Positions 361 through 62,475 of a DNA stretch of 64,000 nt are shown in pieces (positions within the stretch are counted from its first letter, which is position 1; each line of letters starts with the position of its first letter). This DNA comes from Ophiura sarsii (Eukaryota > Echinodermata > Ophiuroidea > Amphilepidida > Ophiuridae): contig CM069459.1 in the NCBI GenBank assembly GCA_035610835.1, positions 31,532,366 through 31,596,365 on the forward strand. The letters run 5' to 3'. The notes beneath the pieces were generated by a model. The model did not search any database. It was not told the origin of the DNA and saw only the letters and a list, made by a program, of their open reading frames with translations. The translations under genes and the position numbers were made by a program.

Positions 361-631
361 CCCTAACCTCCTAAGTCACATTTTGAATATTTTTTTTTCA
401 ACGACAAAAACGCCGACAAAAAAGAGTGGCGCCGCCACCGGGGCTCGAACCCACAACCTCTCGGTTGCGAGACGAACGCTCTACCAGTGCGCCACGGGGG
501 CCAACCATACTCGGGCCAGTATATTGGCCCGACTATGTAGCCTGGGGCCATTATTTCATCGAAAAAGTGCCACGCCAGCTGGCACAGACAGACTTTACCG
601 TGGACATTTGTGGCATTGAGGATGGTTAGGG
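361..631 (-). mobile_element. CCCTAAC-ended element with tRNA-like head, TTAA flanks
   Basis: The element starts CCCTAACCTCC and ends GGTTAGGG, and it has TTAA on both sides (357-360 and 632-635). On the minus strand, about 505-426, it carries a tRNA-like pol III promoter: an A-box-like stretch (TGGCGCACTGG) and a B box (GGTTCGAGCCC). The acceptor and T stems do not pair fully, so this is a tRNA-derived element rather than a tRNA gene. There is no poly-A tail. The terminal inverted repeats plus TTAA look like piggyBac-type non-autonomous DNA elements, which do not normally contain tRNA heads. Confidence 0.75.
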
Positions 632-924
632 TTAAAGACAAATTGCCGTATACAACATAAGAAACTGTCTGGTACACAATAGAAGAAAAATAAACTTATT
701 GTATATCTCTGGTGTTGTTTCTGCCATTCTTTTCTTAGTAAAAATTTTCATTTTCTTTGATAAATAATGATCAAAAATTATCAAAATATTTTGAAACAAA
801 TGGCACATACATATTAAATGCTTTTAAATACAGAAATGATAAACAACAACACTAGGAACTTGTCATGGATTGTTTTAAAACACAAAAGCAACATTGCTTC
901 TTGTACATGAAACATTTTGTCAGT

Positions 925-968
925 GGCGCGTAGCTAGGTATGTCATACAGGGGGGGGGGGGGGGGGGG
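925..968. mobile_element. hAT-like end fragment plus poly-G run
   Basis: CAGTGGCGCGTAGCTAGG resembles the 5' end of the complete hAT-like MITE at 10326-10605 and is followed by an 18-base G run. No matching 3' end was found, so this is a truncated copy. Confidence 0.4.
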
Positions 969-1149
969 CAGAATGACAGTGGACCGACAAGATTATTATG
1001 GCAAAAGAATGTTCAACATTCCCAATTTTTGCTATGATTGAGGTACATTTTGCTCTAAACAAGCTGCGCTTATACCAAAACATTGCATTTTGGAGAAACA
1101 TGTGCGCTTAGCGGCGCGAAAAATTAACATATATTCTTTTATTTTGTAC

Positions 1150-1282
1150 TTAAAAAGAAAATCCCGCCTCTCAAGATCGCCATTTAAGTTACGTACAGTT
1201 GGGGTATATTTCGCCCCCATCCCCAACTGTTATGTACGCTCCGTACGTAACTGAAAATGGCAAAATTATGGACGACCCCTTT
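1150..1282. mobile_element. Half of a GTTACGTAC palindromic MITE
   Basis: It shares the end block GTTACGTAC, then AACTGAAAATGG, then GGACGACCCC with the fuller palindromic copy at 19596-19861, and itself forms a shorter palindrome around 1190-1250. The outer end near 1282 matches; the other outer end is missing. Confidence 0.5.
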
Positions 1283-1640
1283 AATGGGCATGCTTCTGAA
1301 TATGGTTGCAATTTGAGAATAGTGATCAACGCTTTGGTATTTGAAGCCGGTGTAAAATAACGGAAGCTCAAAATAACCATGAAAACACTTCCATGGTACA
1401 ACTTTATCTGACTTGACAACAGTTATATTATGTGACACATATGTGACGATTGTTACGAGTGAGTGTCCTCTAATCAACAGAGTTTCCATATCTACAATTT
1501 AGTAGCCAAGTCAAAATAGCCACCACCAACATGTGTACAGGACTAAAAACAGTAAGTTCCAAATTGATGAGCCTTCTTGCAGTAGCGAATCAATACAGAA
1601 GAGCCTTGGCGTTCGTGCATAAGGAAGAGAAAAAAAATTG

Positions 1641-1991
1641 TGTTGCCCTCAAGTGCTAAAAAAAATTGGGTCGGTCGGTCGGTCGGAAAATCCTTTTTTT
1701 CTTTTCTTTTTTTCTTTTTTTTTTTAGCTGAAAAATATATAGTTTATGTCAAGACAAAATTGGTATAGGCCCATATGTCAATTTAACTAATGTTTCTAGT
1801 GTTATAATAATCTAAAAACATTTAGTAAAGCTAATTTATTCATTTCAAGCCAGAAATAGTAACATTTAGACACTTCAAGGACAAATTTAAAATCTTAAAT
1901 AAAAAAATGAAGACATTTTGAAGAAAAAAAAGAAGAAGAAAAAAGCAGACCCTAATTTTTGCGATTTTAGGGCCAGTCGCTGAGGGCAACA
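1641..1991. mobile_element. TGTTGCCCTCA-ended MITE
   Basis: The terminal inverted repeats are TGTTGCCCTCA at the left and TGAGGGCAACA at the right. The interior holds a GGTC tetranucleotide run and pyrimidine-rich tracts. Relatives with the same ends lie at 8469-8769 and 56154-56480. No convincing target duplication was found. Confidence 0.6.
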
Positions 1992-2051
1992 CAACTATTA
2001 TTTGTTGTTGGCCTAACGCTGAATATAAAAGCAACAGGGCATACTCTACAT

Positions 2052-2614
2052 CAAGTATGTGCAACCTTTTCTACCACGCGGGCCGCATTGTGATTTTGAG
2101 ATCCATTCACGGGCCGCAGTGAATGTCAAACATTCCAAAACACATCCGGATACCCGCTTCTCTTCGCCATTTTAACCAGGGATTTTGATACGCAATCACA
2201 AGTTTGTTTTGATGAAAGAAATGTGCGCATAGCGCGCGAAAATTTTCGACTTTACACTTATTTTTGCTATCTATGATTGAGGTACATTTCTGCTTTAAAC
2301 AAGTTTCTACCAAAAGAAAATCCATTTGGGGTACACATGCGCAAGTAGCGCGCGAAACAATTAGGTCTGTGCACTTTTGACCATCATAATTCCATGATTC
2401 CTCTTGTCTAATTAACCGACAGTGCCAATCTCAACCGACACGACAGTCAATATTGGGGGGAAATTAGCCCCCTCGCCCCCCTCTGGCTAAATCAATTTCG
2501 CCATTAGTGTAACCTAGGGAGTTCCGGTTAAAACGGGCCGCATCAATGGGAATTTTGGGATTGCTTCGCGGGCCGCAGATTAGAGGCCGGCGGGCCGCAG
2601 GTTGCACACGCTTG
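2052..2614. mobile_element. hAT-like MITE, 8-bp TSD (CTCTACAT)
   Basis: The left end CAAGTATGTGCAACCT pairs with the right end GGTTGCACACGCTTG, and CTCTACAT is duplicated exactly at 2044-2051 and 2615-2622. The subterminal GGGCCGC blocks and GCGCATAGCGCGC runs are shared with the copy at 58982-59415. The 8-bp duplication is the hAT hallmark. There is no open frame of useful length, so it is non-autonomous (563 bp). Confidence 0.85.
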
Positions 2615-2668
2615 CTCTACATGATTTGCACTATGCCTTGAGCTTTGGTCCCTTCAGGACCCAATTAA

Positions 2669-3317
2669 AGGTATATTATGTGATTTTTTTTCCAGGGGAC
2701 GCCCTCAATCCTCGAGAAAAAAAATTGGAAGCAAATTTTCTTGCAGATTTACTTTTCTGATCATAAATCATAAATTTATTCCAAGTTACAGAGCGATACG
2801 ATTCCCTAACCCCACTAGACCATACAAAATCATCCAAAATAAAACTATCTCCACGCGCGTGCTGCTGCATTGGCTCGATTACGTCACCTACCGCAGGCAT
2901 ATGTGGCCACGAAGTTTGTGGCCGCATATGCGCTGGGGAGTTAGCTCAGTTGATAGGGGCACAGACTGGGGTGCGAATGGTCCCGAATCCCGGGGGGTGC
3001 TCGGTGATTTTTCGGGTGAACAAAATTGTACTTTTTCCCCCTCCCCCCGATACACGCAAAAACATAGCCGTGGGAGTTAGGGTTAAAACCTCAAAATCAT
3101 ATATATATAGTTTCAGAGTGAATTTAGAGTAAAATTTGTTCCGCTCGGTACAATCTATTTTTAAACCATGATTTTGAAGTAATTAGGAATCGTATCAACT
3201 GTAACTAAGAAGATCTTTATGATTTATGATCAAAAATGCAAACCTGCAAGAAAATCTGCTTTCATAGTAAATATCAATGATAGAGGGCGCTACTTAGAAA
3301 AGATCACATAATATGCC
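2669..3317. mobile_element. AGGTATATTATG-ended palindromic MITE, interrupted
   Basis: The TTAA at 2665-2668 and 3318-3321 flanks ends that read AGGTATATTATGTGAT and, inverted, GATCACATAATATGCC. The two arms are long inverted repeats (AAATCTGCAAGAAAATCTGC type), as in the uninterrupted copy at 13767-14143. A tRNA-headed element at 2804-3082 has inserted into one arm. Confidence 0.75.
2804..3082 (+). mobile_element. CCCTAAC-ended tRNA-like element nested in MITE
   Basis: It starts CCCTAACCCC and ends GTTAGGG followed by TTAA. It carries a tRNA-like module near 2938-3003 (A-box-like GTTAGCTCAGTTGATAGG, weak B box around GGTCCCGAATCCC). A close copy is at 54346-54629. Comparison with the empty arm at 13885-13915 and 13990-14030 shows the interruption directly. 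The left flank is GATT, not TTAA. Confidence 0.7.
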
Positions 3318-3833
3318 TTAAATGCTCATGTCCATAGGATCGACCATATAAACCAGGCATTCTCAAATAGTTGTTGTGAAGTGCCACTTCCAAAATTGAG
3401 AAGTGCGAAAGTGCCACACTCCATGCGAGGGAGAGGAGCGACTGAGCTCCTAATGGGTGGGGTCCATGGGCCCACCTTAGAGCCCTTCGCCCCTGGAGGG
3501 CTCTCCTGGCACTTATTTACATGCAAAATTTGTACTGAATTTAGTTGTTGCTTTTGTAATAATTTGTATTTGTATACAGAAAACGTTCCTCAAAAATTAC
3601 TTTCGATCATTTTAGTATAGGATCTTGGGTTATGAGTTACTATTCCTAAGGTTTGGGTCAAGAATTATTGTGTGGGTTATTTAGGGTCAAATATAGGTCA
3701 TCCAAGGTCCTGTTTTAGGACTTAGAAACAAATTAAAAATGTGAAAAAACAAAACCCACCGTTTTTTAACCATAATTACGCTCACGCGCTACTTGGAACC
3801 AGCCAAGCGCCACTATTTACAGATGCCTGACAT

Positions 3834-3868
3834 AAACAAACAAACAAACAAACAAACAAACAAACAAA
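3834..3868. repeat. (CAAA)n microsatellite
   Basis: Perfect tetranucleotide repeat of about 35 bases. Confidence 0.9.
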
Positions 3869-4805
3869 GCACATGGCCATAAATATATGGCTACATCTAG
3901 TTTTCACCGCACCAAACATTGGGCTACTACTTGACATCATAAACCAGCAACACCGTTGATTAGGGCACCATGGTATATAATGTAATATAGCACGTTAGAT
4001 AGCGTGGCAGGAATTACTGTATACGGTCTTATCAGTTTAACAAGAAGGATATAGCGGATCATTTGTGACACAGATGTGTATGGCTTGAAAGGTGAACCAT
4101 TTAGTATCAAATTTGGTATCAAAAATGAAGAAAGTAAGTGGTAGTCAAATCATATTTAAGGCAGAGTATTCAATTTTTATGAAATGGAATTTATTTGCAT
4201 TTTGGATTTTTATCGCCTTGTGGCTGAACTTTCAGATATCAAGTGTTTCAGTGAGTCTTTTACTGAGTTGTCTTGTTGACAGTCATATCTGTCAATTGCT
4301 TGGTCTGATGGTGGACTACAATGTATACCAATTTATGCATCAATTTGTCCAATTTTGTTATACTTACATACATGTGCGTGATTTAAATGCTCATCAAAAA
4401 TTAAGATTTAAATGCTCATCAATAAAGCTTAAAAGCTTTAATCCTTTCATGTAATGGTTCTCTTTAATGTATTTTGTATTTTATGAAACTACCGCTTTGG
4501 AGTTTGAAGCGTCCGTCCTGTAATCAATTGTTATGATATTATAATAATGGTTTTGTATATTGGTGAACTGGTGGTGCTTTGCTTGAAAGTCGAAGCATTT
4601 AACTTTCCCAGTGCATTGTGTTTAGATATCAGGATAGAATTTGTTCTGCGTGCAGTGCAACAAATATGTTGATATTAATGATTTTACAGGAATCATGTGA
4701 TTATATTGCTATTATAGCTGGTGTGAACATTGAAATGTTAATTAGTGAATAAAGGTAGTTATTGTTGTAGACCATACCCATGTTTTACCATATACAAAAC
4801 AGATT

Positions 4806-5170
4806 CTTCATTCATTCATCATTTCATTTCATTCATTCATAAAAGGTTTATTAACAATTGTTATAGCAGAATAACATCTGAATTGCAACAATTTTACAAT
4901 ATAAAAACATGTATAAATATCAAAATATCAAAATACAATTGCACAAGCCCATCAATAATGATTTAAAATATAATATCAAGAACAGTATTTAACCAAATAA
5001 ATGAACCACACATTACATACACACCTCACAAACCAATCCACCCCCACCTGGCATACCTTCTACACACACCTACATACAACCCCCCCCCCCCCCCCCCCTC
5101 CACCACCCCCACACCCCAACTCACAGACAGAAACACCTTACGCCCAACACTCACCCACCACGTCCACATA
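4806..5170. repeat. ATTC microsatellite and C-rich low-complexity tract
   Basis: Short ATTC/ATTT repeats near 4806-4842 give way to a CA/C-rich stretch with a C homopolymer around 5081-5098. The reading frames across it (proline and threonine runs) are composition artefacts. Confidence 0.6.
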
Positions 5171-5307
5171 CATTCAAAGCAAACTTACAACTCACATTAA
5201 ATAATTTAAATGATCACGATATTATACACAGCTAAAAGGACGAAATGTATGCACAGGATAAAAGTTGAATACCAACAAGTGACCAGTTCATTGCACTAAA
5301 AGAGCAG

Positions 5308-5535
5308 TATTGAAAACACTAATTAGTCTTATTCCAGAGACCTTCAGAAACCTTTCCCAACTTTCAAAGTTAATCTCAAGGATTACTGATCCAATTCTAG
5401 GCATGTTTGTACTTATTTTACTTTTGATTCCAATTATGGTAATGAAATTCCATAGTATTTTTGACATTTTTGAAACATTTTGTGAAATTTTGGAACTGTC
5501 TTCTGCAGATGCCTGCCGCGTGGAAGGCGTTTTAA
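5308..5535. mobile_element. Degraded CACTTTCC-type MITE
   Basis: Internal sequence (TCAAGGATTACTGATCCAAT, GGCATGTTTGTACTTATTTT) and the right end CTGCCGCGTGGAAGGCG match the TTAA MITE family described at 22890-23127. Both terminal TTAA sites are lost. Confidence 0.6.
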
Positions 5536-6131
5536 AAGACCTTTTGACAGAAATCTGTTAACTAGTATAACAATCTATGTGTGAATTGTTTTTCAGATTC
5601 TTTGTCAAATTTTTAGCCCTTGGTATTTATAACGAAGCCTCAAGTATGGCAACCCTCAAGTAAGATAAGAGGGTGTTGAGAAAAAGACCAAATAATGGCT
5701 TAAAATACAGGCTCTGCCCAGGCCAGAAATCAAACTCTGGTGCATGGATGCAATTGGTCACATTTTTGGGGTCATGCTTGGCAAAAACCAAGTTTTTTTT
5801 ATTACCATAATGTACCATAAGCCTTTTTAGGTCGTCTGTAAGAGAGACCTTATGGCTGCAATCCTTCGTGTGTCTGTGTTGTCTGTCAACAATTGGTACA
5901 CACTTTTTGTTTTGTACATTCTTTTCCATAAAATGACCAATTGTAACCAAACTTCGGTCATAGATGCAACATGGAAACCTTCATATGTTAATGAGGTTAA
6001 AGGTTACATACCAAGGTCAAAGGTCATCTGAGGTCAAGATGTATATAAAAGTGGCTGCATATGTAAAAATGATTACATTTGTCCTTTTTGTCTCCTCTTC
6101 CTTGCTTTCCCTTCCTTAGCCTTCTCAATTT

Positions 6132-6183
6132 TCCAGGTCAGGGGGGGGGGGGGGGCACTCTACCCCCCCCCCCCCCCCCCCAC
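6132..6183. repeat. Poly-G / poly-C inverted homopolymer pair
   Basis: A G run of about 15 and a C run of about 18, separated by CACTCTA, can fold on themselves. Length in the real genome is likely uncertain because such runs are hard to sequence. Confidence 0.7.
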
Positions 6184-6184
6184 T

Positions 6185-6341
6185 TTCCCCCGCTTGGCTA
6201 TGCTACTGAGAGTATCAGACTTGCACGCACGCGGCCTAGGTTCGATCCACGGTGTGTGCGGAGACTGATTTTCCCCTCAAATTTGACCTGTTTTTCTCCC
6301 CTGATAGTTTAATTTACAAAAACACACCCGGGGAGTTAGGG
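6185..6341 (+). mobile_element. tRNA-like element, GTTAGGG end
   Basis: A tRNA-like module (near 6190-6265, with B box GGTTCGATCCAC) is followed by a tail shared with 6376-6648 (GACTGATTTTCCCCTCAAAT) and an end GGAGTTAGGG with TTAA at 6342-6345. The left end is unclear because of the homopolymer runs beside it. Confidence 0.6.
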
Positions 6342-6375
6342 TTAAGAAGCACCTTTTTCATGTGCTGTTATTGTT

Positions 6376-6648
6376 AACCTTCCTGGACACTACAAAACAC
6401 CACAGTGTTACAATCTTGTACCGCGTGGCGGCCCCATCGATCTCATGCCACGCTCAGCACGTGGTTCATCTTGTTAAAAAACATAAGTTTTTTAACCTCC
6501 CCCGTGTAGCTCAGTCAGTACAACATCAGACTTGCACGCACGCGGCCCGGCTTCTATCCGCAGCGCATGCGGAGACTGATTTTCCCCTCAAATTTGACCC
6601 ATTTTTCTCCCCTGATAGTATTTCACAAAAACACACTCGGGAGTTAGG
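6376..6648 (+). mobile_element. Second tRNA-like element of the same subfamily, TTAA flanks
   Basis: TTAA at 6372-6375 and 6649-6652 flanks an element that begins CCTTCCTGGAC and ends GAGTTAGG. The tRNA-like module lies near 6500-6570 (A-box-like GTAGCTCAGTCAGTA; degenerate B box). A minus-strand relative is at 61982-62201. Confidence 0.65.
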
Positions 6649-8468
6649 TTAAGGATAGAACAAGAGAAAGAGAACCAATTGAGATTTAAAGTGACATTAA
6701 TTTTTTCAAAAGAGGATGATTTTTAGCTAGATTCAAGGTCATAAGACTATCCTATTAATGCAATGACGACAACCACGACGACAATCGACAAAGTGTATTA
6801 TAATTTTAATGCTGCAGAATGAATGGGCTACAACTAATTCCATATAAATTAAGTGAACAGACAGTGATGTAGTAAGTGTTCGAATTCGACAGTATCGCAT
6901 GGCTAAATGCTACACAATTTCCACAAACTGCTAAGCAATTGTCCAAAATGTATCGCTAAAAGTGCGATTGTACCTGTAATACCTCGGTTATCAGCGTTTG
7001 ATCCCCTCTTTAGAGTACCAAAATCAACAAAACCTTAAAGCAAAAACATTGTTCCACATCAATCAATCGCCGATAATAAACAGTCCTGCAGTTGCAACTT
7101 GATACATTAAATCACCGCCATTACGCAATCTGTTTTTGATCGCTGTATTTACAACCGTTACTCCCTGAATTTTCTCGCAAACATGTGACTAGGACTACGG
7201 GACAGAAAATCAACATGTGGTCATAGCTTAGGGAGTAGTATGAATGAAAAAATGGTAGCGCTCCTTGGTTTATTTTCGTCAGTTGGCATGTTTCAATATT
7301 TACACGGGATGAGATTTATATTGTATCTGTGAATCTTCTTATTCTTTGTTTTAAAGTTTTGTATCTTATTTGTATATTTTTAGTATTAAAGATATTATAT
7401 ATTATTTTAAACGTTCGTTTTTCGAAGTTCCCTTCTCCTTGAATGAGCAGTTGATTGGGCGAAATAAAAATAAATGTTTGTTTCCGTTAACCAGACCGAC
7501 CCACTTAAAACCTGCCGACCCAAAAAAGGATATCCCAATTTTGATAAATTAAAATTTATTTTCTGAAGGCAGGCCTAATGTTTTTTTGTGTATAAAACGG
7601 AAATAAGAAAATGTCTAAAATATTTTGCCACAGCCTTCCATGATACTCCCGGCATTATACAAAAATAAAATCAAAACTCAGCGTTCAAAATAGGGCTTGT
7701 CCAGTTGTTGGACAACCCATTTTACCAAGTTAGCTGTCCAGCAGAACCAACTTATTACAATTAAAAACATCATAAACAAGTTTTTAAGCCCAAGAATGGA
7801 ACATTATAATAATACAAATTGAGATTTGTAATTGATTTTCATGTAGAAATGATTAAACCCTCGGATATATTCCGTTTTTGCCCCGTTTTTGCCATTCATT
7901 TCACCGTCTATGATTATTCCAACATTATAAACTCTTGCCTTACCACGCGGCACAAAAATACTGCTATCTAAAATTGTGGACTTGCTATACAAAACGAATT
8001 TTGCATAGCAAAATACCTGCTATGCAAAATTTGGAAACTGCTATACAAAAATTTAAAAAAATGATTGATTCAAACCCTGGATGTAGTATACTATCGCATT
8101 AAGCGATTCAGTGTCATTTATTTTTAATTGGCTTTTACTTAGTGGCATAGTGGCCTAGGTGATCTGTATTGTATTCAACAATGGCAGCCCACATTATTTG
8201 TATAGAATCTATAATGGTTAAAGTGCTCGAGAAAAGTGCAAATTATTGAGAGTGGGGATGTGGTTCAAGGTCTGTTTGTGGAGCTAATATACATTGGTGT
8301 GCAGTGAGATTGAGGGCCCTAAAATGTGAGGGCTCAGAGAAGCATATAACAAGTGGGCTTTGTTACGAGGCCCTCTTTGTTTTAGCACTTGAAAGTGGAA
8401 CATTTAATTAAGATCATAACAACCAAAAATGTCGTCAGTGATTATTCAACTACACATCAAAAATCATA

Positions 8469-8769
8469 TGTTGCCCTCAGCGACCAACCTTAAAATCTCA
8501 AAAATCATGGTCGCAATTCTGTTTTTTTCTCATGATATCGAAATTGTCAAAATATTACTATTTTCTGCTTAGAGATGAATATTAATCTTTGATACGATAA
8601 ATAGTTTTTAAACTAACTATCACACTAGAAACATTGACATTAACCAATTTCGTCTTGACATGAACCACGGTTAACTGTTAGTAACATTTGTCAGCAAAAA
8701 AAAAGAAAGAAAAAAAGGAAAACCGACGGACCAATCCGACTTATAGATTTTTGGCACTTGAGGGCAACA
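8469..8769. mobile_element. TGTTGCCCTCA-ended MITE
   Basis: It has inverted ends TGTTGCCCTCA and TGAGGGCAACA and an interior like 1641-1991 in the opposite orientation. Confidence 0.6.
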
Positions 8770-8939
8770 CCCTTTTTTTTTACCTACCTCCTTTAGATGA
8801 CAGAAAAGATCTCACATGCCATCATCCAAATTTTATTTCTTTTGATTATAAAATCCTAAGAAGAAATGATGATCTACATGTATGTGTCACATGTTAAGAT
8901 GCACATTTGAATACCTAGGCGCAATTTACCTGGGTAGGT

Positions 8940-9355
8940 CAGGGGTGTACTTTCGCGACATCCTACGAGAATCCAAATGGATTCTCGCAGAGGAATTTTG
9001 CGAGAATCCATGGATTCTCGCAAATGGATTCTCGCAGAGGAATTTTGCGAGAATCCTTTTTACTGAATTTAAATTCCGCATTTTAAACATTTATTGTACT
9101 ATTGTATACTTAGAAAATAATAGTACACAAATTGAATCAAACACTTCTTAAAATTAATTAAAATAATATCAAGAATAAGGCTATAAGCTTGCATAACTTC
9201 CAAATTCGGCATGTTTGTTGACTAAGGGTCAAATACCAGTCATCTAAGGTCCTGTTTTGGACTTAAAAAGAATCCACCTGGATTCGCGCGGTAGTGATTT
9301 TACGCGAATCTTTACGCGAATCGATTCGCGGATTCGCGCCGAAAGTACACCCCTG
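8940..9355. mobile_element. MITE with CAGGGGTGTACTTTCG ends and internal palindromes
   Basis: The left end CAGGGGTGTACTTTCG mirrors the right end CGAAAGTACACCCCTG. The flanks share GTAGGT (6-7 bp duplication; the outermost bases are ambiguous). The interior repeats the inverted pair GAGAATCCA / TGGATTCTC several times. This looks hAT-like by its ends. It has no coding capacity. Confidence 0.7.
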
Positions 9356-9412
9356 GTAGGTGAAGCTTTATGCAATGCATGGGCGAGTGATATTTGTGGA
9401 TGAGTTGCTTTT

Positions 9413-9690
9413 AAGGGACGCACCATTAGATTTTCAGGGGGGTAGGAAGTTGGGTTCAGGTTTTTTGTTTGTTTTTTTGGCTGCCGTAAGGGGGGCTTTT
9501 TCTTTTTTAATGTATTCATTCATATTGAGTTGGGTGGGGGGTAGAGTTTTTTTGTTTGCTTTTTACTCATCAGGGGGGGGGGGTGTTGCCTGCATAGAGG
9601 GGGATTTTTTCTTCTCCAAAATCTTCCTGCTCCCCCCCCCCCCCACCCCCCCCCCCACCCCCCCCCCCCCCCCCCCCACCCCCCACTAGA
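9413..9690. repeat. GGGACGCACCATT-type fragment with G and C homopolymers
   Basis: It begins GGGACGCACCATTAGAT, the same end as the complete element at 56496-56809, then runs into T/G-rich sequence and long C runs (about 9634-9687). No matching inverted end was found. Confidence 0.45.
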
Positions 9691-10325
9691 AATATAATGG
9701 TGCGACTCTAAACTGTGTGTGTGTTATGAAGCAATAATTGAATGGTGTGAGGGAATTGTTCATCTTGAGTGATTTATACCATACTTTCTTAGGCGATCAA
9801 AGTTTTGGATGAGTTTTGTAAATTGAAATGTATACTGAAAGTTAAATACTTGTTGATGTCATGCTATATCGGAACAGATAAAGATGGAATCGACAGAGTA
9901 AGTAGGAACATATTCCCCAATATATTACCGGTATAAGATTTGGACTGCAATTTGGCTTTTATATATTTTATATATTTTTTCAAGAATGGTATAAATCATT
10001 CTGGGACACCCTGTAATGGCCTGTATTAGAGTGTAGTGTTCTGAAGAAAAACTGACAGAGTATTCTTGATGTGAACTGGACCATAAATAAAACTAATAAT
10101 TCCCATCTTGTTTTGTGATGGGACTTGTAATTTGATAAGCAGATAAATGACAAACATGTACACACTCTATCTATAAATGTATCTATAAATAATGGATTTG
10201 CTGTTATCAAGGGATTTGTTTGTTCTGGTGGAATTTTTGCACTACCATTAATTTCACATAGTATGTGAAATTTGGATGAGAATATTAAACAGATTTTATT
10301 TTGTTATAGAAATCATATACTGTTA

Positions 10326-10605
10326 CAGTGGCGTAGCTAAGGGGGGCACGGGGACAGTTGCCCCTGACAGAAAAAAATCCTTAAAAAACCCTAAAATGCC
10401 CTTAGTGCCCCCAAGCCCTATTGTGCCGCCCCCCCATTCTCTGGATGTAGTGTGTATAGGCATTATGACAACTTACAACCCCCTCCCTCCCTCCCTACTC
10501 TCAAATTTTCTGAGCTGACTGCAAAAAAATTTGGGGCAACATTTTACGAACATTTCGAAAATCCTGCCCCCCCCCCCCTTGAAAAAAATCCTAGCTACAC
10601 CACTG
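10326..10605. mobile_element. hAT-like MITE, 8-bp TSD (TACTGTTA)
   Basis: It has ends CAGTGGCGTAGCTAAGG and CCTAGCTACACCACTG, and TACTGTTA is duplicated exactly at 10318-10325 and 10606-10613. It is 280 bp, non-coding and C-rich inside. Confidence 0.9.
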
Positions 10606-11039
10606 TACTGTTATGTTTCAGTTGTAAATTAGGAACAAAGATTTGTACATTCACAGAGTGAACAAATCAAAAGGGAATTCTTTATGAGATATTAAAAATT
10701 AAAACCATATATTTAAGAAAAACTGATTAAAAAATAGGGCACATAATCATGATAATTGAATGTAAGTAAGCCTGCTTAATTTTGCAGACACTGACATTTG
10801 CATGAAACTCACAAAGATTAGACAAATTTTATTTTGCATTTGCGGAATCCTTCTTATAAAGAAGGAGAAAACAGTGGCGTTACTACACCGGCAGTTCAGT
10901 ACGATTACTTGTTTAGTAAGCCTTCCTTTTCGGGAAATATTACCCCGTAATCCCCTGCAAATGTATACTCGTAGTAATCACAGTATAATCATACCAAAAA
11001 GACCAATTTATTTATTTAAGGCATAGTAAAATAAATAAC

Positions 11040-11676
11040 ATGTTTCCCGTCCAGACTTTTAAAAAAAAGGAGGGGTAGGGTCTTACTATTTACTATTTTC
11101 CAATTTTTTGCTATTTTTTCCAAGATGGCTGACAAGTCGAAAGTAACCAACTGACTAGTGTCGGGGACACTCCTCAATATATTTTCACTATACTTGCCAG
11201 AGAGAAAAAAAAACCATTTAAATACAGTACATTTTGTTAATTATTTGTGCAATAGACGTATGTGTTGCCTGTAAAATGATATACGGTAACACTGTAAAGA
11301 TTTGTAACTTAATGTTCGCATTTTTTTTCCTCTTCAATTTGGGTCAAATAAAATTATAATTGTTGTTTGTAGCCTATGCCTGCCTGTGATCTGGTTAAAA
11401 TAATTCAAATCTGTATATGTCTTGATCATTGTTTAAAATGAAAATGTATTTCAAATTAATGAAAGTATTTCTAAATTATTTCAACAAACCAAGATAATAT
11501 TATACTTGGGCAAGATATAGGTCACTCGAGGAGTCAGGTAGGGGTGAATCGATGCTGTTCAGGTGACCAATTAAAGCTCTGAAAAATTATTATTATTATT
11601 TTTATTTTTTTAAATATTAAATAGTAACAAAAAGGAGGCGGCGGCTAAAACGGAGGCGGTCGGGGACGGGAAACAT
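11040..11676. mobile_element. Element with TGTTTCCCGTCC inverted ends
   Basis: The left end TGTTTCCCGTCC mirrors the right end GGACGGGAAACA. The interior is AT-rich with no frame of interest. The target duplication is not clear, so the family is not assigned. Confidence 0.5.
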
Positions 11677-11853
11677 GGAACTTTTTTTTACTAGGCCTAG
11701 ACCAAAGATGTTGGAATTATGAAACATTGACGATCAATCAGTAAATGAGTTGAGATAGTTAAATAAATTGTTTAGTCATAATTATAGATTTTTCAACTGA
11801 GAGGATCATGCTCCTACCTTGTAGGGAGGGACCAGGGGGTTTGGAGACCAGTG

Positions 11854-12145
11854 GGGGGGGGGCGTACTCAGATTTGGTTTGGTCAGGGGGTGTGCGGCTG
11901 GCGATTCAAAAACCCCTACCCATTTCTAAAGGTGATTTTGGAAAATACGGTACCCATTTTTAAGGGTTTTGGTTCATTATATACCAAATTTTCGCAAATT
12001 ATCTGGAAAAAATACATAATTTTCGCAAATGTTCGGAAAAATAAGCCCATTTGTAAAAAGGAACTCATTGTTAGGGATTTTCCAGCACAAAATCATACCC
12101 TATAGGGATTTCTTGAAAAAAAGCTACCCAGGGTTTGGAGTGAAG
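11854..12145. mobile_element. GTACTCAGATTTGGTTTGG-type repeat, truncated
   Basis: It is closely related to 23855-24185 (shared GGTTTGGTCAGGGGGTGTGC and CAGCACAAAATCATACCC). It retains the left end but not the matching GAGTACCCCCC right end. It lies just upstream of the first visible exon. Confidence 0.55.
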
Positions 12146-12803: not shown

Positions 12804-13766
12804 GTAATGAAATATTGAACCTGAACGATGTTTATTACTAAATGTCTCTGTTATTACATAATAACCATACCTACCTAATTTCATCAATCACAATTAGCAT
12901 TATTCTCAGAATAATCAATACCCAACATTTTAATTACAATGCATTTTTAGGCCTACGGACATACCCCAGATCATACCTATTTGGGCTACCAATCAGCGCA
13001 CTTGGCAACCCTTCTTCAATTTGGCACCCAGCCCCTCCTGACAACACTTCCTCTTTCTCCTCATAAAGGGACACTACTGGGTCCACACGTCCCTCTATAT
13101 ATCAATAGGGAATACATGTATGATGGAGTCTAAAGGGACACACTCATTCCTTCCATCTACCTCTGTGCAGAGCATCTGCATTCAGTAATTGATGCAGCAT
13201 TTAAGCATCAGTGCTGGAAATCTGCTTTGATTTTACAGGTAAAAAACCTAGTGCATGACAATAGTTATGCATGGGTTTATAAAGCTGCAGTTTTTTGATG
13301 CTCCGACTTCGCTCCATGGAGGTAGGCTTCCCTCTCGTGCAGGAGAACAATACTGCCCGTGTATTGTACGTGTATAATGTATACATAATCCTTTTTCTCC
13401 AGTCCATGTTTGATTTTTGTATGATGCTTATTATATCGCCTTTCTTTATACATTGGTCTCGCTCATCAATTTTTTCCACTTTATAAAGACTATAGTCATA
13501 ACCAATATTTCTAAATCAACAAATACATGCGCGTCAGTTTTGGTTCATGCCCAAGTTTTGCAGGCATAGCGCGCGCTTGCATATGTGTCAAATGGTTCAA
13601 GAATTATTTGTTTTCACTGTGGTACATAATACCAATTTAAATGTTATGAGCAGAACCTACGAGAAGTGAAACTTAATTAAATCCACGCGGGGATTGAGTA
13701 AAGGATACAGGCCGAGTAAGTGAAATGAATAAATAGTATAGAATCGTACAAAATGGCGTGAATTAA

Positions 13767-14143
13767 AGGCATATTATGTGATCTTTTCCAAGTAGCACCC
13801 TCTATCATTGATTTTTACTATGAAAGCAGATTTTCTTGCAGATTTGCATTTTTGATGATAAATCATAAAGATCTTCTAAGTTACAGATCGATACGATTCC
13901 TAATTACTTCAAAATCATGGTTTGAAAAATAGATTGTACCGAGCGGTACAATCTATTTTTCAAATTTTACTCTAAATTCACTCTTTAAACCATGATTTTG
14001 AGGTTATTAGGAGTCATATCGCTCTGTAACTTGGAAGATATTTATGATTTATGATCAGAAAGTAAATCTGCAAGAAAATCTGCTTCAATTTTTTTCTCTC
14101 GAGGATTGAGGGTGTCCCATCGAAAAGATCACATAATATACCT
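13767..14143. mobile_element. AGGCATATTATG-ended palindromic MITE, TTAA TSD
   Basis: TTAA at 13763-13766 and 14144-14147 flanks ends AGGCATATTATGTGATC and GATCACATAATATACCT. The arms are near-complete inverted repeats meeting at GTACCGAGCGGTAC, so a single strand folds into one long hairpin. This is the uninterrupted reference copy for 2669-3317. Confidence 0.8.
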
Positions 14144-14504
14144 TTAAATTAACAAAGACCTTAAAAATACACAGTGATTACTCCTTTGCCGCGACAGCAA
14201 AGCGGGACCAGGTTCGAGACAGTGCATTTTTTAAGGTATTGTTAATTTAAATCAGTTTGTCTGAGTCTACATTAATTTATTTAAATGTTATGAAGACGTG
14301 CTTCTATTTACAGGAGGATGTTAAAAAAATAATTATCGAGCACAAATCGCGTAGTTATATTTAACAAAGCATATCAAAATAAAAACTGTCATTGCTCAAC
14401 ATGCAATTTTTACAAATTTGCGGCTGATCGAAAGTCCCGGTATCAATGAAGTCATAGTTATACAATGCATTGCGTAAATTTGTGTACACCAATAAATCAT
14501 GACC

Positions 14505-21721: not shown

Positions 21722-22889
21722 GTAAGAAAATATAATGCGGTCTTACGGACATTGCATGATTGCAAATCAGTGCTTTGTCGCAGTGTGTGCTAAATTGCTA
21801 AAAAAAAGGATTAATAGGCTTTCATCATTGCTGCTTGAGTACCAATGCTTGCCAAAGATATGTTCTGTGATTTTGAAGTAAAATCTTTTTAACTGTTTCG
21901 TGTTTAAAACTTCCTTTAAAACAACAGAATACGCTAAGAAAAATCTCTGATATTTTCTCGTACATTTCGAGGAGTTAGTGCAACAAGGGTCCATTTACAA
22001 TAGCTGCCATATGTTATCATGTGTGGTAGTTTATAGTAGACTCCTTGATATAAAACTAAAAGTAACACAGGGCAGCTATAGCAGGGATAGGATATTTTAT
22101 CACTTACATCTCAGTTATGTGAAAAGGCAATATCTACAATAGCTGCCGCATGTTATATATTACGGGTGCTTTTAGATAATGCCCTTGTGAAAACACCATC
22201 TGACAAATAGCAGCCATTGCAGATAGGACTTTGTTGCACTGAACCATCGATGTGATCAATTGGGTCAGGTATTGAATGGTTCACCCCTGAAAATGGCCTC
22301 AAGCGATTTGGAAATATGCGGGTATTGCGCAATAAGTCTGGCGAGATTTTTATCATCAAAAAGTCATTTATTGGCAAAAAGATTCAACATCGATCTCTTT
22401 CATTCTGGTTTTGAGTGACTTGCGCGTAGGAAATCAATACAAAAAGCACAACACCTCAAACTTGAGGGCGCCCTCCTTTACCAAATGACTGAATATGCCT
22501 TTAAGCAGGAGATTTGTATCTGAAATGCAGTGGAGGGGGAAATGTGGAATCTCGGAATCTCCCTCCTTCCCAGGAGGAAATTTGGTCATCTGAAGGGAAA
22601 TGTTGACAATTTGGAGGGAAATTTTAAACACAGTTTTGCACATAAAGATGTGTATAATAATTGTGGGAAATTTGATTTGCTTCTGGGGAATAAAAAGCAT
22701 ATTTCCTGCCCTGCTGAAATGCATTCACTTATTGTCACTCCGCTTCGCTCTAAGCTAATTCATGCAATGTTTCTAATGCAAAAGCCAGCTTTACTTTAAC
22801 CCAACTTTCCTCAACACTATACAGATCACTACACTGCTGCTAGGTGGTGGTACCACACAGGCTATATCAAATGGCAAAGAAAATGTTAA

Positions 22890-23127
22890 CAATTTCCATG
22901 CGGCTATTAGTTTTACCATATTCAAAACACATTTTTCAGAAACCTTTCTCAACTTTCAAGGTCTATCTCAAGGATTACTGAACCAATACTAGGCATGTTT
23001 GTACTTATTTTATTGCATTTCTCATGCTAAGTCCAGATATAGTAGTGACAGTCAATAATGTTGACATTTTTAAACATTTTGTGAAATTTTGGAATGTTGT
23101 CTGCAGACACCTGCCGTGTGGAAAGTG
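22890..23127. mobile_element. CACTTTCC-type MITE, TTAA TSD
   Basis: TTAA at 22886-22889 and 23128-23131 flanks an element with ends CAATTTCCATGCGGC and GCCGTGTGGAAAGTG. The family is marked by GTCTGCAGAC near one end, then CATTTTGTGAAATTTTGGAA, GGCATGTTTGTACTTA and AGAAACCTTTC. It is the commonest element in the window (about a dozen copies). It has no coding capacity. Confidence 0.8.
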
Positions 23128-23131
23128 TTAA

Positions 23132-23239
23132 CATTTTCCAGTTGACTCTGTGGCGCAATCAGTTAGGTGCCGAACTTCCATGTCGGCGACCAGTTTTTAA
23201 TTCCCTCTTCATTCATTGAACATGTCAGGGAAGTTAGGG
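23132..23239 (+). mobile_element. tRNA-like element, GTTAGGG end
   Basis: A tRNA-like stretch (GTGGCGCAATCAGTTAGGTGC, with a damaged B box) is followed by an end GGAAGTTAGGG and TTAA at 23240-23243. It sits immediately beside the MITE at 22890-23127 and shares its TTAA at 23128-23131. Confidence 0.5.
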
Positions 23240-23249
23240 TTAAAAAAGA

Positions 23250-24790: not shown

Positions 24791-24844
24791 CACTATCCTT
24801 ATTCAATTTGGTCCCATTTTTAAAGAGTGTATTGCGTGTGTTAA

Positions 24845-25115: not shown

Positions 25116-25182
25116 TTAATTGATGTATACCTGGGACCTAAAGGGAGTGCACTTTACCCACAACAAAATTTCACAGCTTTCC

Positions 25183-53740: not shown

Positions 53741-54005
53741 CCCTAACCCCGGTTTAGGGTTTTTGACCGGAATCACGATTTTCGAGGAAAAAACGCCGAC
53801 TAAATCTCTGGGAACCTGTCGGGATTCGATCCGGGGACCCTCCGTTCTCAAGCCCCACGTCCCAACCACTAAGCCACGGCCCTCAGCTACACATTCACGC
53901 AGTATACTGCGCTCACTATATAGGCTCGGTTGACAATGTCAACCGAGCCTAGAGGGACTAGAGGGACTTAGGATTAGCATTTTTTAGCACTCAGGGGGGT
54001 TAGGG
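53741..54005 (-). mobile_element. CCCTAAC-ended element with tRNA-like head, TTAA TSD
   Basis: TTAA at 53737-53740 and 54006-54009 flanks CCCTAACCCC ... GGGGGTTAGGG. On the minus strand about 53883-53812 is a tRNA-like module (GTGGCTTAGTGGTTGGGAC, later GGATCGAATCCC). Its sequence differs from the tRNA-like heads at 361-631 and 2804-3082, although the ends are shared. Confidence 0.75.
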
Positions 54006-54345: not shown

Positions 54346-54629
54346 CCCTAACCCCACCAGACCATACAAAATCATCCAAAATAAAACTATCTCCACGCGC
54401 GTGCTGCTGCATTGGCTCGATTATGTCACCTACCGCAGGCATATGTGGGCACGAAGTTTGTGCCCGCATATGCGCTGGGGAGTTATCTCAGTTGATAGGG
54501 GCACAGACTGGGGTGCGAATGGTCCCGGGATCGAATCCCGGGGTGTGCTCTGTGATTTTTCGGGTTAAAAAAATTGTACTTTTCCCCCTCCCTCCGATAC
54601 ACGCAAAAACATAGCCGTGGGAGTTAGGG
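54346..54629 (+). mobile_element. CCCTAAC-ended tRNA-like element (copy of 2804-3082)
   Basis: It starts CCCTAACCCCACCAGACC and ends GGGAGTTAGGG with TTAA at 54630-54633. The tRNA-like module near 54475-54545 keeps GGTCCCGGGATCGAATCCC, a better B box than at 2804-3082. The left flank is AGGT. Confidence 0.7.
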
Positions 54630-57047: not shown

Positions 57048-57489
57048 TTAAGGTGTGGTGTAGTTGTTTGCTTTGATTTTTTGTTTTTGTTTTCCCACAT
57101 TTTTAATGAACGTGTTGAAGAGGTCGTATAATTGACATAGAGGGCAGTGCATGCAGTATAATTACCGCTTTGTGGAGGAAGCCAGACTTGGGAAGCTGGT
57201 CTTACATCAATGTTATTTTAAAATACAGATGTTTGGTTTACTATATTTGTATCCGGTACTGAAACCCATACTCATTGCGGTGATTTGTATAAATTTACAA
57301 TGTTATTGTGTAGGTGTTTGGTACGCTGTTTTACATTGAAATTTGTACTAAAACTTATTTTCATTGGATAAAAAATATAAGCTTTTCGCCCATGTTGAAA
57401 TGTTCAAAAAAGTACATGTGCAGCAGCCAACTGTCACTGGAAATAAGTGTTATCTTTCAGGTAAGTTTGCATTGTGCAAGTCCTGGTAA

Positions 57490-57728
57490 CACTTTCCACG
57501 TGGCAGGCGGCTGCAGACGACATTGCAAATGTTCACAAAATAATTCAAAAATGTCAGAATTATTGAATTTCATTACCATATTTGGAATCACCATGAGAAA
57601 TGCATTGAAATAAGTACAAACATGCCTAGTATTGGTTCAGTAATCCTTGAGATAGACCTCGAAAGTTGGGAATGGTTTCTGACAAATCTGTTTTGTGTAT
57701 GGTAAAACTAATGGCAGAGTGGAGAGTG
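57490..57728. mobile_element. CACTTTCC-type MITE in duplication copy 1
   Basis: CACTTTCCACGTGGCAGGCG ... GTGGAGAGTG, left flank GTAA, right TTAA (57729-57732). Confidence 0.75.
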
Positions 57729-58119
57729 TTAAGGTGTGGTGTAGTTGTTTGCTTTGATTTTTTGTTTTTGTTTTTCCACATTTTTCACGAATGTGATGAA
57801 GAGGAAGCCAGACTTGGGTAGCTGGTTTTGCATCAATGTTATTTTAAAATACAGATGTTTGGTTTACTATATTCAAACTTGTATCCGGTACTGAAACCCA
57901 TACTCATTGCGGTGACTTGTATAAATTTACAATGTTATTGGTGTAGGTGTTTGGTACGCTGTTTTACATTGAAATTTGTACTAAAACTTATTTTCATTGG
58001 GTACAAAATATAAGCTCTTCGCCCATTTTGAAATGTTCAAAAAAGGACATGTGCAGCCAACTGTCACTGGAAATAAGTGTTATCTTTCAGGTAAGTTTGC
58101 ATTGTGCCAGTCCTGGTAA

Positions 58120-58358
58120 CACTTTCCACGCGGCATGCGGCTGCAGACGACATTGCAAATGTTCACAAAATAATTCAAAAATGTCAGAATTATTGAATTT
58201 CATTACCATATTTGGAATCACCATGAGAAATGCATTGAAATAAGTACAAACATGCCTGGTATTGGTTCAATAATCCTTGAGATAGACTTTGAAATTTTGG
58301 GAAAGGTTTCTGAAAAATCTGTTTTGTATATGGTAAAACTATAGCCGCGTGGAAAGTG
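58120..58358. mobile_element. CACTTTCC-type MITE in duplication copy 2
   Basis: CACTTTCCACGCGGCATGCG ... GCCGCGTGGAAAGTG, left flank GTAA as in copy 1, right TTAA (58359-58362). The shared GTAA shows it was copied with the block, not inserted separately. Confidence 0.75.
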
Positions 58359-58868
58359 TTAACATTCTTTTTGAAAACATTTATAGAATTTGCTTAGCTC
58401 GGCCAAAGTCATACAGAATAGCGGAATAGTTATAGGTCAATAAATGTGTATGTTTTTGTTTCGAGAGAAATTAGACAAATCAATGCACGCGCGCTGATGT
58501 TGATGTGTGAATAATGGCACGACCCCGAAGGGGGAGTGCTATTGTGAGCATATCAACATTCCGCGTATTTGTAATTCCTGCTTCCTGATTGGTTCAACAC
58601 TACATAGAGTGTATGAATGTGTTTCACAACATCTCCCAAGTGCGTTATTTTACTCCTAAAGCGACAAATTATAAACCTAACTGTTATTTGTGTTGACTGA
58701 CCCATTTTTGTCTGAATTTGAGGGGGGAAGAAATGTTTATAAATAGTTTGATTTTTTTTTTTTAAATGTCAAAAATTATTGTAAATTTACAAAAATTATC
58801 ACAAACATTTGGGGGGGGGGGACAAACCCACCAACCAACCCTACCAGTTTGCTTCAATCATAACTTAA

Positions 58869-60054: not shown

Positions 60055-60107
60055 ACCCCCCTTTTTCAGTATAAAGTGATTACACATTGATTTGTTTTAT
60101 TCTGCAG

Positions 60108-60231: not shown

Positions 60232-60252
60232 GTAAGAATATTGCTAAGGCGA

Positions 60253-60480: not shown

Positions 60481-60636
60481 CCCATAGAACAAGGTGTTCT
60501 TTTGTCACCTAACCATAATATTGAGATTTCTTATCTCAATATTATGTCTATACAAACAATCCAGATGATTTTTTTCAAAGATACTGCTTACCAGTTAATT
60601 TGCCCTCTACGATACAGTGACGTCAGTACATAAATA

Positions 60637-60680
60637 CAGGGTGTCCCAAAAGTCTATGCACGATTTGAAAGAGTCATATC
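60637..60680. mobile_element. Mariner-type terminal fragment
   Basis: TACAGGGTGTCCCAAAAGTC followed by TATGCACGATTTG is a typical mariner-like end. No inverted partner was seen downstream. Similar lone ends (CACCCTGTA) occur near 10004, 39108 and 53419. Confidence 0.45.
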
Positions 60681-61474
60681 TCATAGAATATAAATCATAT
60701 GGTATAAATTTAACCATATTTTGAAAGACGAGATTTGGGAAATTATTTTGATACCAAACACAACCCTATTGGTGAACCCACAACATTATAAAACTGGTTG
60801 AAAGTTTTTGGCCGAGTGCCACACCCACCCATATCAAGTACCACACATTGTGGCTAAAAAGCAACGTTGCGCATTAGTCACAGTTCACTGCTTACCTTGG
60901 AACATAAATAGGCTTAGTAGACAACAATGCACAGCAAAAGTCTTCATTCAAGATGGGTTTACAGCATAGATAAGCAAATACAAAGTGTATGATTCTACGC
61001 TGAAACAAATTAAGTTCAAAAAGTCATATTTTGGTTAAGAAATAGCAAAACATGTTCTGTTTACGTTTGAATACGGTATAAACACATAAAATCGTCATTT
61101 ACTCACATACTTTATATCAACTGTCGCATTGTATGTTTATTTCACTTGCGTAAACGTTTTATAGACCACAGTTGCTTTTCTGCCGAATTTACACGTGCTC
61201 GCCCAAAACCAGCGTCAGTTGGGGTATGGTCTATATGTATAGGTATATATGTTCTTCATAGCGCTGGTCTTTAAATCTTACTACTACTTAAATATGCTTA
61301 CTACTTAAATATGCATGTTTAATGATTCTTTAAAATCGTGTATTTGTGTAGTATCTGCTTGTTTTTTTGTTTTTTTAAATCGGACCATCCGACACACATT
61401 TCTTGACCTGAAAGGGCATTTTTTTTTTGGCCTAAGAAGAATGTCAGCCTAACATGCAAATGCTGTACCTGTCA

Positions 61475-61708
61475 CTATAGTTTAATCAGTTCCAAATTAG
61501 CGAGAAATATTTGGTTTTATCTCTCCACAGGCAAAAGTAATCCAAGAGTACGTGCGAGATTATGGCCACACGCACACAGGTTTTGTTCGCATGCACGCGT
61601 CACGCATATGCAACTCAGTGCAGTTGTTGCCTTCATGCACGCCCTCATAATTATTCGCGCTGGTCAAATAAAGGAGGCTTCGCCAATTTTGAACTGATCA
61701 AACTATAG
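61475..61708. mobile_element. Palindromic element, CTATAGTTTRATCAGTTC ends
   Basis: CTATAGTTTAATCAGTTCCA at the left pairs with TGAACTGATCAAACTATAG at the right over about 29 bases with three mismatches, including TTAGCGA/TCGCCAA. A half copy is at 32996-33045. Confidence 0.65.
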
Positions 61709-61735
61709 AATTGAGCTGATGTTAGCTTGACAATT

Positions 61736-61855
61736 CTTCCCCTCCACTACCATCTTCCCTCACACCCCATCTCTTCCTCTTCTTTCTAACTACCATTAAC
61801 ATCTCATCTCCCCTTCCTTACTCTTACCATCTCCTCCCTTCCCCTCCCCTCCACA
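61736..61855. repeat. Polypyrimidine tract
   Basis: About 120 bases of mostly C and T (CCCTCC, CTTCC, ATCTCC phrases). Confidence 0.75.
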
Positions 61856-61981
61856 AGTTGAACGCCTGGCAGAGCATGGTACGAGATTGACCGGGTGCTC
61901 GCGCAGTACACGATTGTAGCAATGTCTGGTTTTGTAGTGTTCAGGAAGGTTAAGGTAGAACATGAAAAAGGTGTGTTTTTA

Positions 61982-62201
61982 CCCTAACTCCATCAGGCTT
62001 GGTTTTGTGAATTAAACTATCAGGGGAGAAAAGGGGTTGAACTTGAGGGAATACAAGTCTGCACATGCGCCGGGGATCGAACCCAGGCCGCGTGCGTGCA
62101 AGTCTGATGCTCTACCGACTGAGCTATGTGAGTCAGGTTCAAAAAAGTTGAACGCCTGGCAGAGCGCGGTACAGGTTTTGTAGTATTAAGGAGGGTTAGG
62201 G
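61982..62201 (-). mobile_element. CCCTAAC-ended tRNA-like element
   Basis: It starts CCCTAACTCCATCAGG and ends GGAGGGTTAGGG with TTAA at 62202-62205. On the minus strand near 62133-62055 is a well-preserved tRNA-like module (ATAGCTCAGTCGGTAGAGCA and GGTTCGATCCCCGG). It is the best-preserved member of the 6185/6376 subfamily. The left flank is TTTA. Confidence 0.7.
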
Positions 62202-62475
62202 TTAATGTAATAGATCAAAATCTGACTTATTAATTATTACAATTGTACCCCCCCAAAAAAAAAGTTGAACGCCTGGCAGAGCGCGGTACAGGTTTTGTAG
62301 TGTTAAGGAGGGTTAGGGTTAATGTAATAGATCAAAATCTGACTTATTAATTATTACAATTGTACCCCCCCAAAAAAAAAGTTGAACGCCTGGCAGAGCG
62401 CGGTACAGGTTTTGTAGTATTAAGGAGGGTTAGGGTTAATGTAATAGATCAAAATCTGACTTATTAATTATTACA
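62147..62475. repeat. 117-bp tandem repeat
   Basis: GTTGAACGCCTGGCAGAGCG starts at 62147, 62264 and 62381, a period of exactly 117. Each unit contains GGAGGGTTAGGGTTAATG, the end and flank of a CCCTAAC-type element, then ATAGATCAAAATCTGACTTA. A single earlier copy of the start phrase is at 61856. Confidence 0.85.

Follow-up and report, generated by a model that had tools for sequence, protein, structure and literature searches.

Elements with CCCTAAC-Type Ends and tRNA-Like Modules

The window analysed here, that is, the whole stretch of 64,000 nucleotides at positions 31532366-31596365 of an Ophiura sarsii contig (labelled G000:C19; GC content of 36.8%; genome of 1,573,662,873 bases in 748 contigs), contains short elements with CCCTAAC-type ends that enclose tRNA-like modules. 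The sequence-only reading of this stretch had pointed to seven of them, and this observation was confirmed. A total of eight such elements could be defined, the seven known before and a new one at 22800-23239, and they represent five families: A (E2 and E6), B (E3, E4 and E7), C (E1), D (E5) and E (E8). Loci denoted by L and a number are stretches taken from outside the window.

Element E1 (361-631, minus strand) lies between TTAA at 357-360 and TTAA at 632-635, and contains a tRNA-like head at 430-501, with a hairpin upstream and a T6 run past the head. E5 (53741-54005, minus strand) also has TTAA on both sides; its A box is TGGCTTAGTGGT, its B box is GGATCGAATCC, and two hairpins lie upstream. 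Both family A elements have TTAA on the right side only: E2 (2804-3082, plus strand; GATT on the left), which sits in a palindromic repeat and has partly lost its B box, and E6 (54346-54629, plus strand; AGGT on the left), which belongs to a multi-copy family and is a diverged copy, with 10 differing columns.

In family B, E3 (6185-6341, plus strand) and E4 (6378-6648, plus strand) form a tandem dimer, of which E3 is the first half. The 5' part of E3 is gone in a C-run, and its 3' end is GTTAGGG (6335-6341) followed by TTAA. E4 is flanked by TTAA at 6374-6377 and 6649-6652 and has degenerate boxes and a 5' end, CCTTCC, that is one CCCTAA-type hexamer short. Five of the element starts given by the sequence-only reading (361, 2804, 53741, 54346 and 61982) are exact ends, while the one at 6376 falls within the TTAA that precedes the shortened end of E4, and the one at 6185 does not mark a 5' end, as only the 3' end of the truncated E3 is intact. 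E7 (61982-62201, minus strand) is flanked by TTAA and by TAAA, which is one base off. A second copy (E7b, 61853-61955, minus strand) is present as a 5' fragment that breaks off at the hairpin, and the spacer between it and E7 resembles the E3-E4 spacer. A 117-bp tandem repeat in three copies (62141-62491, minus strand) overlaps E7 and contains two more family B 5' halves with flank, each cut at the hairpin. The hairpin is a recurrent breakpoint of family B copies (62141-62491, 61853), and one such copy was amplified as the 117-bp array.

The new element, E8 (22800-23239, plus strand; CCCAAC...GTTAGGG, with TTAA at 22796-22799 and 23240-23243), was recognised by its GTTAGGG+TTAA 3' end following a degenerate tRNA-like head, in which the A box is TGGCGCAATCAG and the B box is degenerate. 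It had been overlooked because a 238-bp TTAA element splits its hairpin. This nested miniature inverted-repeat transposable element (MITE; 22890-23127), with the ends CAATTTCC.../...GGAAAGTG, lies in the hairpin loop between duplicated TTAA at 22886-22889 and 23128-23131, and its removal restores the palindrome GAAAATG-TTAA-CATTTTC at the place that the hairpin occupies in the other families. At 22890-23127, 24839-25119, 57484-57732 and 58114-58362, the window has copies of a TTAA-ended repeat whose ends are of the CACTTTCCAYGCGGCAGG type and which is in many cases palindromic in part.

The CCCTAAC-type ends with adjoining TTAA that had been noted from the sequence are far more frequent in the window than expected. 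CCCTAAC matches number 21 against 5.16 expected, a count reached in none of 100 shuffles, and TTAACCCTAAC, i.e., TTAA+CCCTAAC, occurs 12 times on both strands against 0.03 expected, with a maximum of 1 in 100 Markov-1 sequences. A single tandem array accounts for three of these 12 matches, and another, an exact TTAACCCTAAC at 23713-23723, lies outside any definable element, as neither a right end nor a tRNA-like head can be assigned to it. Inverted CCCTAAC/GTTAGGG ends, which conform to the short terminal repeats of piggyBac MITEs with their CC[C/T]T start, are present on E1, E2, E5, E6 and E7. Degenerate 5' ends are found on E8 and E4 (given above) and on the element L093:7599-7868 (CCCTTAC), which, like E1, E4, E5 and E8, has TTAA on both sides. 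The five families also share 22 bases of 5' subterminal sequence, which were selected and aligned visually (114/220 matches); none of 20000 random sets reached this value. Telomere arrays were not seen at the MITE ends, each of which has one or at most two CCCTAA-like units.

Outside the animal, the end pattern had 0 matches in viral contigs. In 257 Gb of prokaryote DNA, two bacterial contigs (L001 and L002) fitted it and were rejected, since they look like chance or unrelated repeats. L002:1382-1649, from a metagenome-assembled genome of Deltaproteobacteria, is a repeat with 13-bp inverted ends CCCTAACGTTGCA adjoining TTAA, and is probably unrelated.

Internal Layout and tRNA-Like Heads

Read in the tRNA sense, all five window families have the same order of parts: CCCTAAC end, hairpin, A box, B box, T-run and GTTAGGG end. 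The hairpin, weak in E7, lies about 45-95 bases from the 5' end. In six representatives of the five families, the A box begins 76-139 bases in, the B box follows it at a distance of 42-44 nt, and the first T-run after the B-box start ends 41-70 bases before the element end. RNA polymerase III (pol III), directed by these boxes, is predicted to initiate close to the hairpin and to terminate at the T-run, within the element, and its transcript would therefore contain neither element end. Thus, the arrangement of a short interspersed nuclear element (SINE), with the head at the 5' end and a transcript running to the 3' end, was found in none of the six representatives.

The boxes were scored in seven window elements (all but E3), with at most 3 total mismatches allowed at a spacing of 41-46, and compared with 3000 random 270-bp window segments outside the elements. 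A first null set (379/3000) was replaced, as its count was inflated by family A arrays. The threshold was passed by 20 of the 3000 segments, and by none at 2 mismatches or fewer. The sequence-only reading had ascribed an A and a B box to every element; this holds for E7 (1 mismatch), E5 (2), E1 (3) and E6 (3), that is, for four of the seven, while E4 and E8 score 5, a value that 215/3000 random segments reach, and E2 gave no match because B-box bases are missing. The family A consensus has 2 mismatches. Outside the window, boxes with at most 3 mismatches occur in L075:2218-2585 and L077:8555-8941, and two more A/B pairs in L093, so that the A and B boxes of a SINE-type internal promoter are present in three non-A elements there. 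Four arbitrarily chosen places (L091-L094; 32 kb in total) contained three A/B pairs, two in the L093 elements and one in L094 without such ends.

As whole molecules, the heads resemble tRNAs much less. E1 (33.6) was the sole head to pass the Rfam tRNA gathering score of 29, E7 reaching 27.0; thus the full cloverleaf at the Rfam cut-off, required for a tRNA gene, is present in E1 only. ARAGORN called no tRNA in any window element, and Rfam found nothing in the stretches L005 (family A), L075 and L077, and nothing of tRNA type in L093. Most heads are tRNA-like in their A and B boxes only. The head of family B (E7) is identical to part of what we take to be the 5' half of an animal tRNA-Lys, and that of family E presumably begins like a tRNA-Arg.

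Over the full sequence, families A to D are in part alike beyond chance (A-D z 15, C-D z 12, B-C z 8, A-B z 7). Part of this likeness is the tRNA-like head itself, and the heads may therefore be partly inherited rather than all exchanged. The three end-defined non-A elements found outside the window (L075:2218-2585, L077:8555-8941 and L093:7599-7868) all carry a head. That in L077, a CCCTAAC element with TTAG/TTAA flanks, has two tRNA-like heads in opposite directions. That in L093 was grouped with E1 as a family C copy, and in an alignment of these two sequences, read by eye, the hairpin stem is kept although three of its eight pairs differ on both sides, none being broken. This is a hint of stem conservation, not a test. 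The family D stem lies in another register.

Transposase-Coding Elements with the Same Ends

The genome yielded 293 piggyBac transposase candidates, and all 116 that were scored lie above the Pfam cut-off. The radiation is very large (L045-L080), with most frames long and open, up to 1,234 codons, and with several end types, including CCCTTTGAACCC, CCCTTTCGACCC and CCCTAACCC. Transposase elements with the CCCTAAC ends of the MITEs, for which the sequence-only reading had proposed to look, are present in the same genome. Among six 9-kb transposase loci, CCCTAAC adjoins TTAA-like flanks at both ends in three (L075, L076 and L078), at one end in L077, and at neither in L079 and L080. In thirty 4-kb piggyBac loci no TTAA+CCCTAAC was found, most elements running past those stretches. 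In L074, a piggyBac domain is preceded, at a distance of about 1.4 kb, by a short interstitial array of the CCCTAA telomere type (L074:97-139).

The ends of the L078 element read TTAA-CCCTAACCCTCC, with TTAA-CCCTAACCCTCCWG on both sides (13/14 match). Its open frame of 840 codons matches PF13843 with 200 bits. The Asp residues that we take to be the catalytic triad align in the protein, which has a Cys-rich C-terminus. Its matches in PDB (6x67, 9c0f) are piggyBat (E 1.4e-24) and piggyBac (E 1.5e-17). Fourteen matches, which score 201.5-202.8 bits and have frames of 818-860 codons, are probably the members of the L078 group, and L075 and L076 are two further transposase types with CCCTAAC at both ends. 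Five further copies of the L078 group yielded nine of their ten ends: five adjoin TTAA, two (those of a single copy) TTAG, one TT+TTAA and one TTAA+AA. Two transposase elements, L081/L082 and L076, have TTAG on both sides. In the window, TTAA and the first 13 bases of E7 are identical to the end of the L078 element (17/17).

A tRNA-bearing element (L037, contig C5) and a transposase element (L087/L088, contig C6) are inserted at the same point of two copies of one repeat, ...GAAAATAGTCCC-TTAA-AGTGGGATATTAGC..., which indicates a TTAA target for both. The left quartet of L037 is ATAA despite this target. Junctions with two additional bases (TTAA+AA or TT+TTAA) are common to family A copies and transposase elements.

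Copies and Multimers of Family A

A first look gave 2627 candidates for family A (at least 82 matches listed). In 38 full copies from 26 loci, all taken from the best-scoring places, the median was 3 differing alignment columns against the 285-bp consensus, and the sampled copies are, to judge from their sequences, young; because of this sampling, youth and multimers are over-represented. The junction tally was based on 32 of 41 sources, including E2 and E6; L012, an inverted pair, was left out, as were L007, L014, L015, L016, L023, L032, L039 and L042 (spacer, truncation or partial ends). L006 and L009 overlap L005. The right junction is TTAA in 30 of the 32.

Direct multimers of 2 to 19 matches were present at 15 of 40 family A loci. 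Between their units there is mostly an approximately 31-base spacer, which reads TTAAAACACACAATTTTTCAATGTTCCATAA or differs little from it, and within the multimers the left junction is nearly always ATAA. The spacer, bounded by TTAA, can also flank single copies or be repeated by itself. In L044 (contig C16:48784739-48792482), 19 family A matches, one of only 80 bp, form an array with two or three spacers between units, which is a transposon turned satellite. In L012, two inverted copies lie 4 bases apart.

Host Repeat of E2 and Other Repeats

The palindromic repeat that hosts E2 ends in TTAAAGGCATATTATGTGATC and occurs at 2664-3323 and 13762-14147 of the window, as well as in L013 and L089. 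The window copy at 13762-14147 contains the approximate pre-insertion site of E2, GACTCCTAATAACCTC, on the minus strand. The comparison of GATT-CCCTAACC...GTTAGGG-TTAAAACC with GATTCC/TAAT/AACC in the other copy is ambiguous and gives no clean duplication, so either a few left bases were lost or none were duplicated. In L089, a transposase element lies at the end of a repeat of this type. Window positions 34742-37492 are a long array of approximately 50-bp repeats with higher-order structure.

Origin and Mobility of the Elements

The CCCTAAC ends, TTAA on both sides of some copies, transposase elements that end in the same way, one target common to both kinds of elements, and the shared two-base junction quirks are all observed. 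Taken together, they argue that the elements are very probably non-autonomous transposons of the piggyBac superfamily, i.e., MITEs that moved as DNA and have a self-contained pol III-type cassette inside. A piggyBac transposase from the longer CCCTAAC-ended elements would excise them and insert them as DNA into TTAA, and such a transposase may move all families. The mid-element cassette, which comprises the hairpin, the tRNA-derived A and B boxes and the T-run terminator, would be transcribed, if at all, within the element only, and thus would be cargo or a cis-acting aid, not a replicating intermediate. Pol III factors might bind it, and the cassette might help the element to spread, e.g., by keeping it open to the transposase. 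The class that combines TTAA-type DNA transposons with tRNA-derived promoter modules, proposed from the sequence, is supported, while the interpretation put forward there as a whole is partly supported.

Several observations weigh against this explanation. Headless, unpaired CCCTAAC-type ends exist (window 23717, L091:3486, L093:1472 and L078:8692), and no convincing likeness between the L078 element and the MITEs extends past about 17-22 bases. The 3' subterminal similarity of the families is weak (82/210; equalled by 23 of 20000 random sets). When each family was left out in turn, its 5' end ranked 28 (C), 22 (D) and 11 (B), and only 1364 (A) and 541 (E), among 127,958 positions, and the 3' ends ranked 11 (B) and 3157 to 11922 (the other four). 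E8 is near chance in its full-length comparison with the other families (z -1 to 2), so that its kinship rests on ends and layout, and its T-run overlaps the degenerate B box. Finally, the left junctions of family A (n = 32) are variable: ATAA 16, TTAA 5, TTAT 3, AAAA 2 and six others once each. Duplications of TTAA, TA and TAA were weighed for this family, and TTAA, which fits the single locus with a comparable target (L037), is the candidate duplication. Duplications other than TTAA had been named beforehand as what would speak against a TTAA transposon. The left ATAA in 16 of 32 cases and the TTAG pairs of L081/L082 and L076 are in part such a departure, while the sole family A locus with a comparable target had TTAA there.

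A neutral origin of the cassettes is a serious possibility, if somewhat short of an even chance: tRNA pseudogenes caught between CCCTAAC ends by deletion or capture would have been inherited as passengers with no role in spread. The degenerate boxes of E2, E4 and E8, the single head above the Rfam cut-off and the likeness of the families (A-D, C-D, A-B), which suggests that the heads may stem from few captures, fit such passengers. Against it, heads recur at the same position behind a hairpin in five window families, those of families B and E look like what we take to be different tRNAs, a head is present in the three non-A elements with defined ends outside the window, and the two family C copies keep the stem despite the paired differences. 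About as probable is another reading, in which these DNA transposons form a guild whose portable pol III promoters aid mobility, different tRNA-derived cassettes having been installed behind a structurally conserved hairpin inside piggyBac ends. If so, they would correspond to SINEs on the cut-and-paste side, with a promoter that favours transposition but does not supply its template.

The junctions of family A might be explained by another route, which we regard as unlikely: multimers formed, e.g., by circles or rolling circles would enter a single TTAA without duplication, and ATAA would be part of the element. The approximately 31-bp spacer seen at many multimer loci, the near-constant TTAA on the right and ATAA in half of the left junctions are in line with it. 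However, left TTAA and TTAT are also found, the spacer itself is bounded by TTAA, the same two-base junctions occur on a transposase element, and a published group of piggyBac MITEs forms spaced tandem arrays that were read there as slippage (PMC2872659). Under the piggyBac-type origin, tandem multimers of family A would move as one unit, from the outer left end to the outer right end, and the left ATAA would be the four flanking bases of the donor, carried as a flap of hairpin opening. In piggyBac of Trichoplusia ni, hairpin opening leaves a four-base donor-flank flap, and elements with mutated flanks still integrate at TTAA (PMC7351741); the left ATAA may therefore be a donor flap. TTAT, the reverse complement of ATAA, and TTAA+AA may be other resolutions of it. 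We infer that non-TTAA flaps may be carried over into natural insertions, and the young copies of family A, with their irregular left junctions, would offer a natural record of piggyBac-type flap handling.

It is very unlikely that the elements are SINEs, with heads that drive pol III transcripts for reverse transcription and CCCTAAC ends that are incidental. The tRNA-type boxes at 42-44 nt and the family A flanks, constant on the right and variable on the left as a 3'-anchored retroelement would show, agree with a SINE, but two defining features fail: the head lies mid-element with T-runs before the 3' end, and the elements end in GTTAGGG and then TTAA, with no A-rich or repeat tail and no variable target duplications. 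Moreover, both ends are precise and inverted, four window elements have TTAA on both sides, and a target is held in common with a transposase element. Capture of tRNA-like DNA at breaks healed with TTAGGG, the alternative raised by the sequence-only reading, is extremely improbable: CCCTAA/TTAGGG is the animal telomere repeat, and the difference between E7 and both E4 and E7b is a single hexamer, but open transposase elements flanked by TTAA or TTAG have one or two CCCTAAC at their ends, no telomere arrays were seen at MITE ends, and CCCTAAC, as the terminal repeat of the piggyBac elements of this genome, requires no telomere repair.

Repeats with A and B boxes are as a rule read as SINEs, so that such elements are easily misfiled as retrotransposons. 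With cut-and-paste ends and an internal promoter, promoter and mobility seem uncoupled in them. If the cassette aids transposition, TFIIIC-bound DNA would be linked to transposon mobility in a way that can be tested, and tRNA-like genes would have a natural route to multiply.

Comparison with Known Systems

tRNA-derived SINEs share with the present elements the A and B boxes at tRNA spacing. They differ in that their head lies at the 5' end, in their 3' tail and variable target duplications, and in the lack of inverted ends. We know of no tRNA module in piggyBac or piggyBat. These are autonomous, and resemble the present elements in the CCCTA start (piggyBac), the TTAA target and the related transposase (PDB 6x67, 9c0f).

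In Daphnia, Pokey transposase elements and mPok MITEs have the same ends and TTAA targets, TTAT and ATAA are minor duplications, and tandem neighbours have a common TTAA (PMC3849761). Transposase elements accompanied by MITEs of the same ends, the TTAA targets and the ATAA/TTAT junctions are thus alike in the two animals. In contrast, mPok is about 750 bp long and has non-coding parts in common with Pokey, and the portion of that paper available to us describes no tRNA cassette.

In the literature searched by titles and the starts of abstracts, the combination of piggyBac-type ends with a tRNA-type cassette was not described, and a Repbase or Dfam entry may exist. The closest published parallel known to us is the CMITE group of Acropora corals. 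CMITE and CMITE-IN are piggyBac-type MITEs of about 100 bp with TTAA duplications and mostly CCCTTT ends; the interior, of obscure origin, is more conserved than the ends, copies form spaced tandem arrays, and one form is inserted at TTAA between 23-bp direct repeats (PMC2872659). By that account, the corals and the present elements have in common TTAA, CCCT-type ends, a characteristic interior and tandem arrays with similar inter-copy sequence, and the 23-bp direct repeats recall the 23-base unit AACACACAATTTTTCAATGTTCC, bounded by TTAA here. The 60-bp consensus of CMITE, as given there, does not look tRNA-like by eye, whereas the interiors of the present elements vary by family and share the layout of a tRNA-type promoter.

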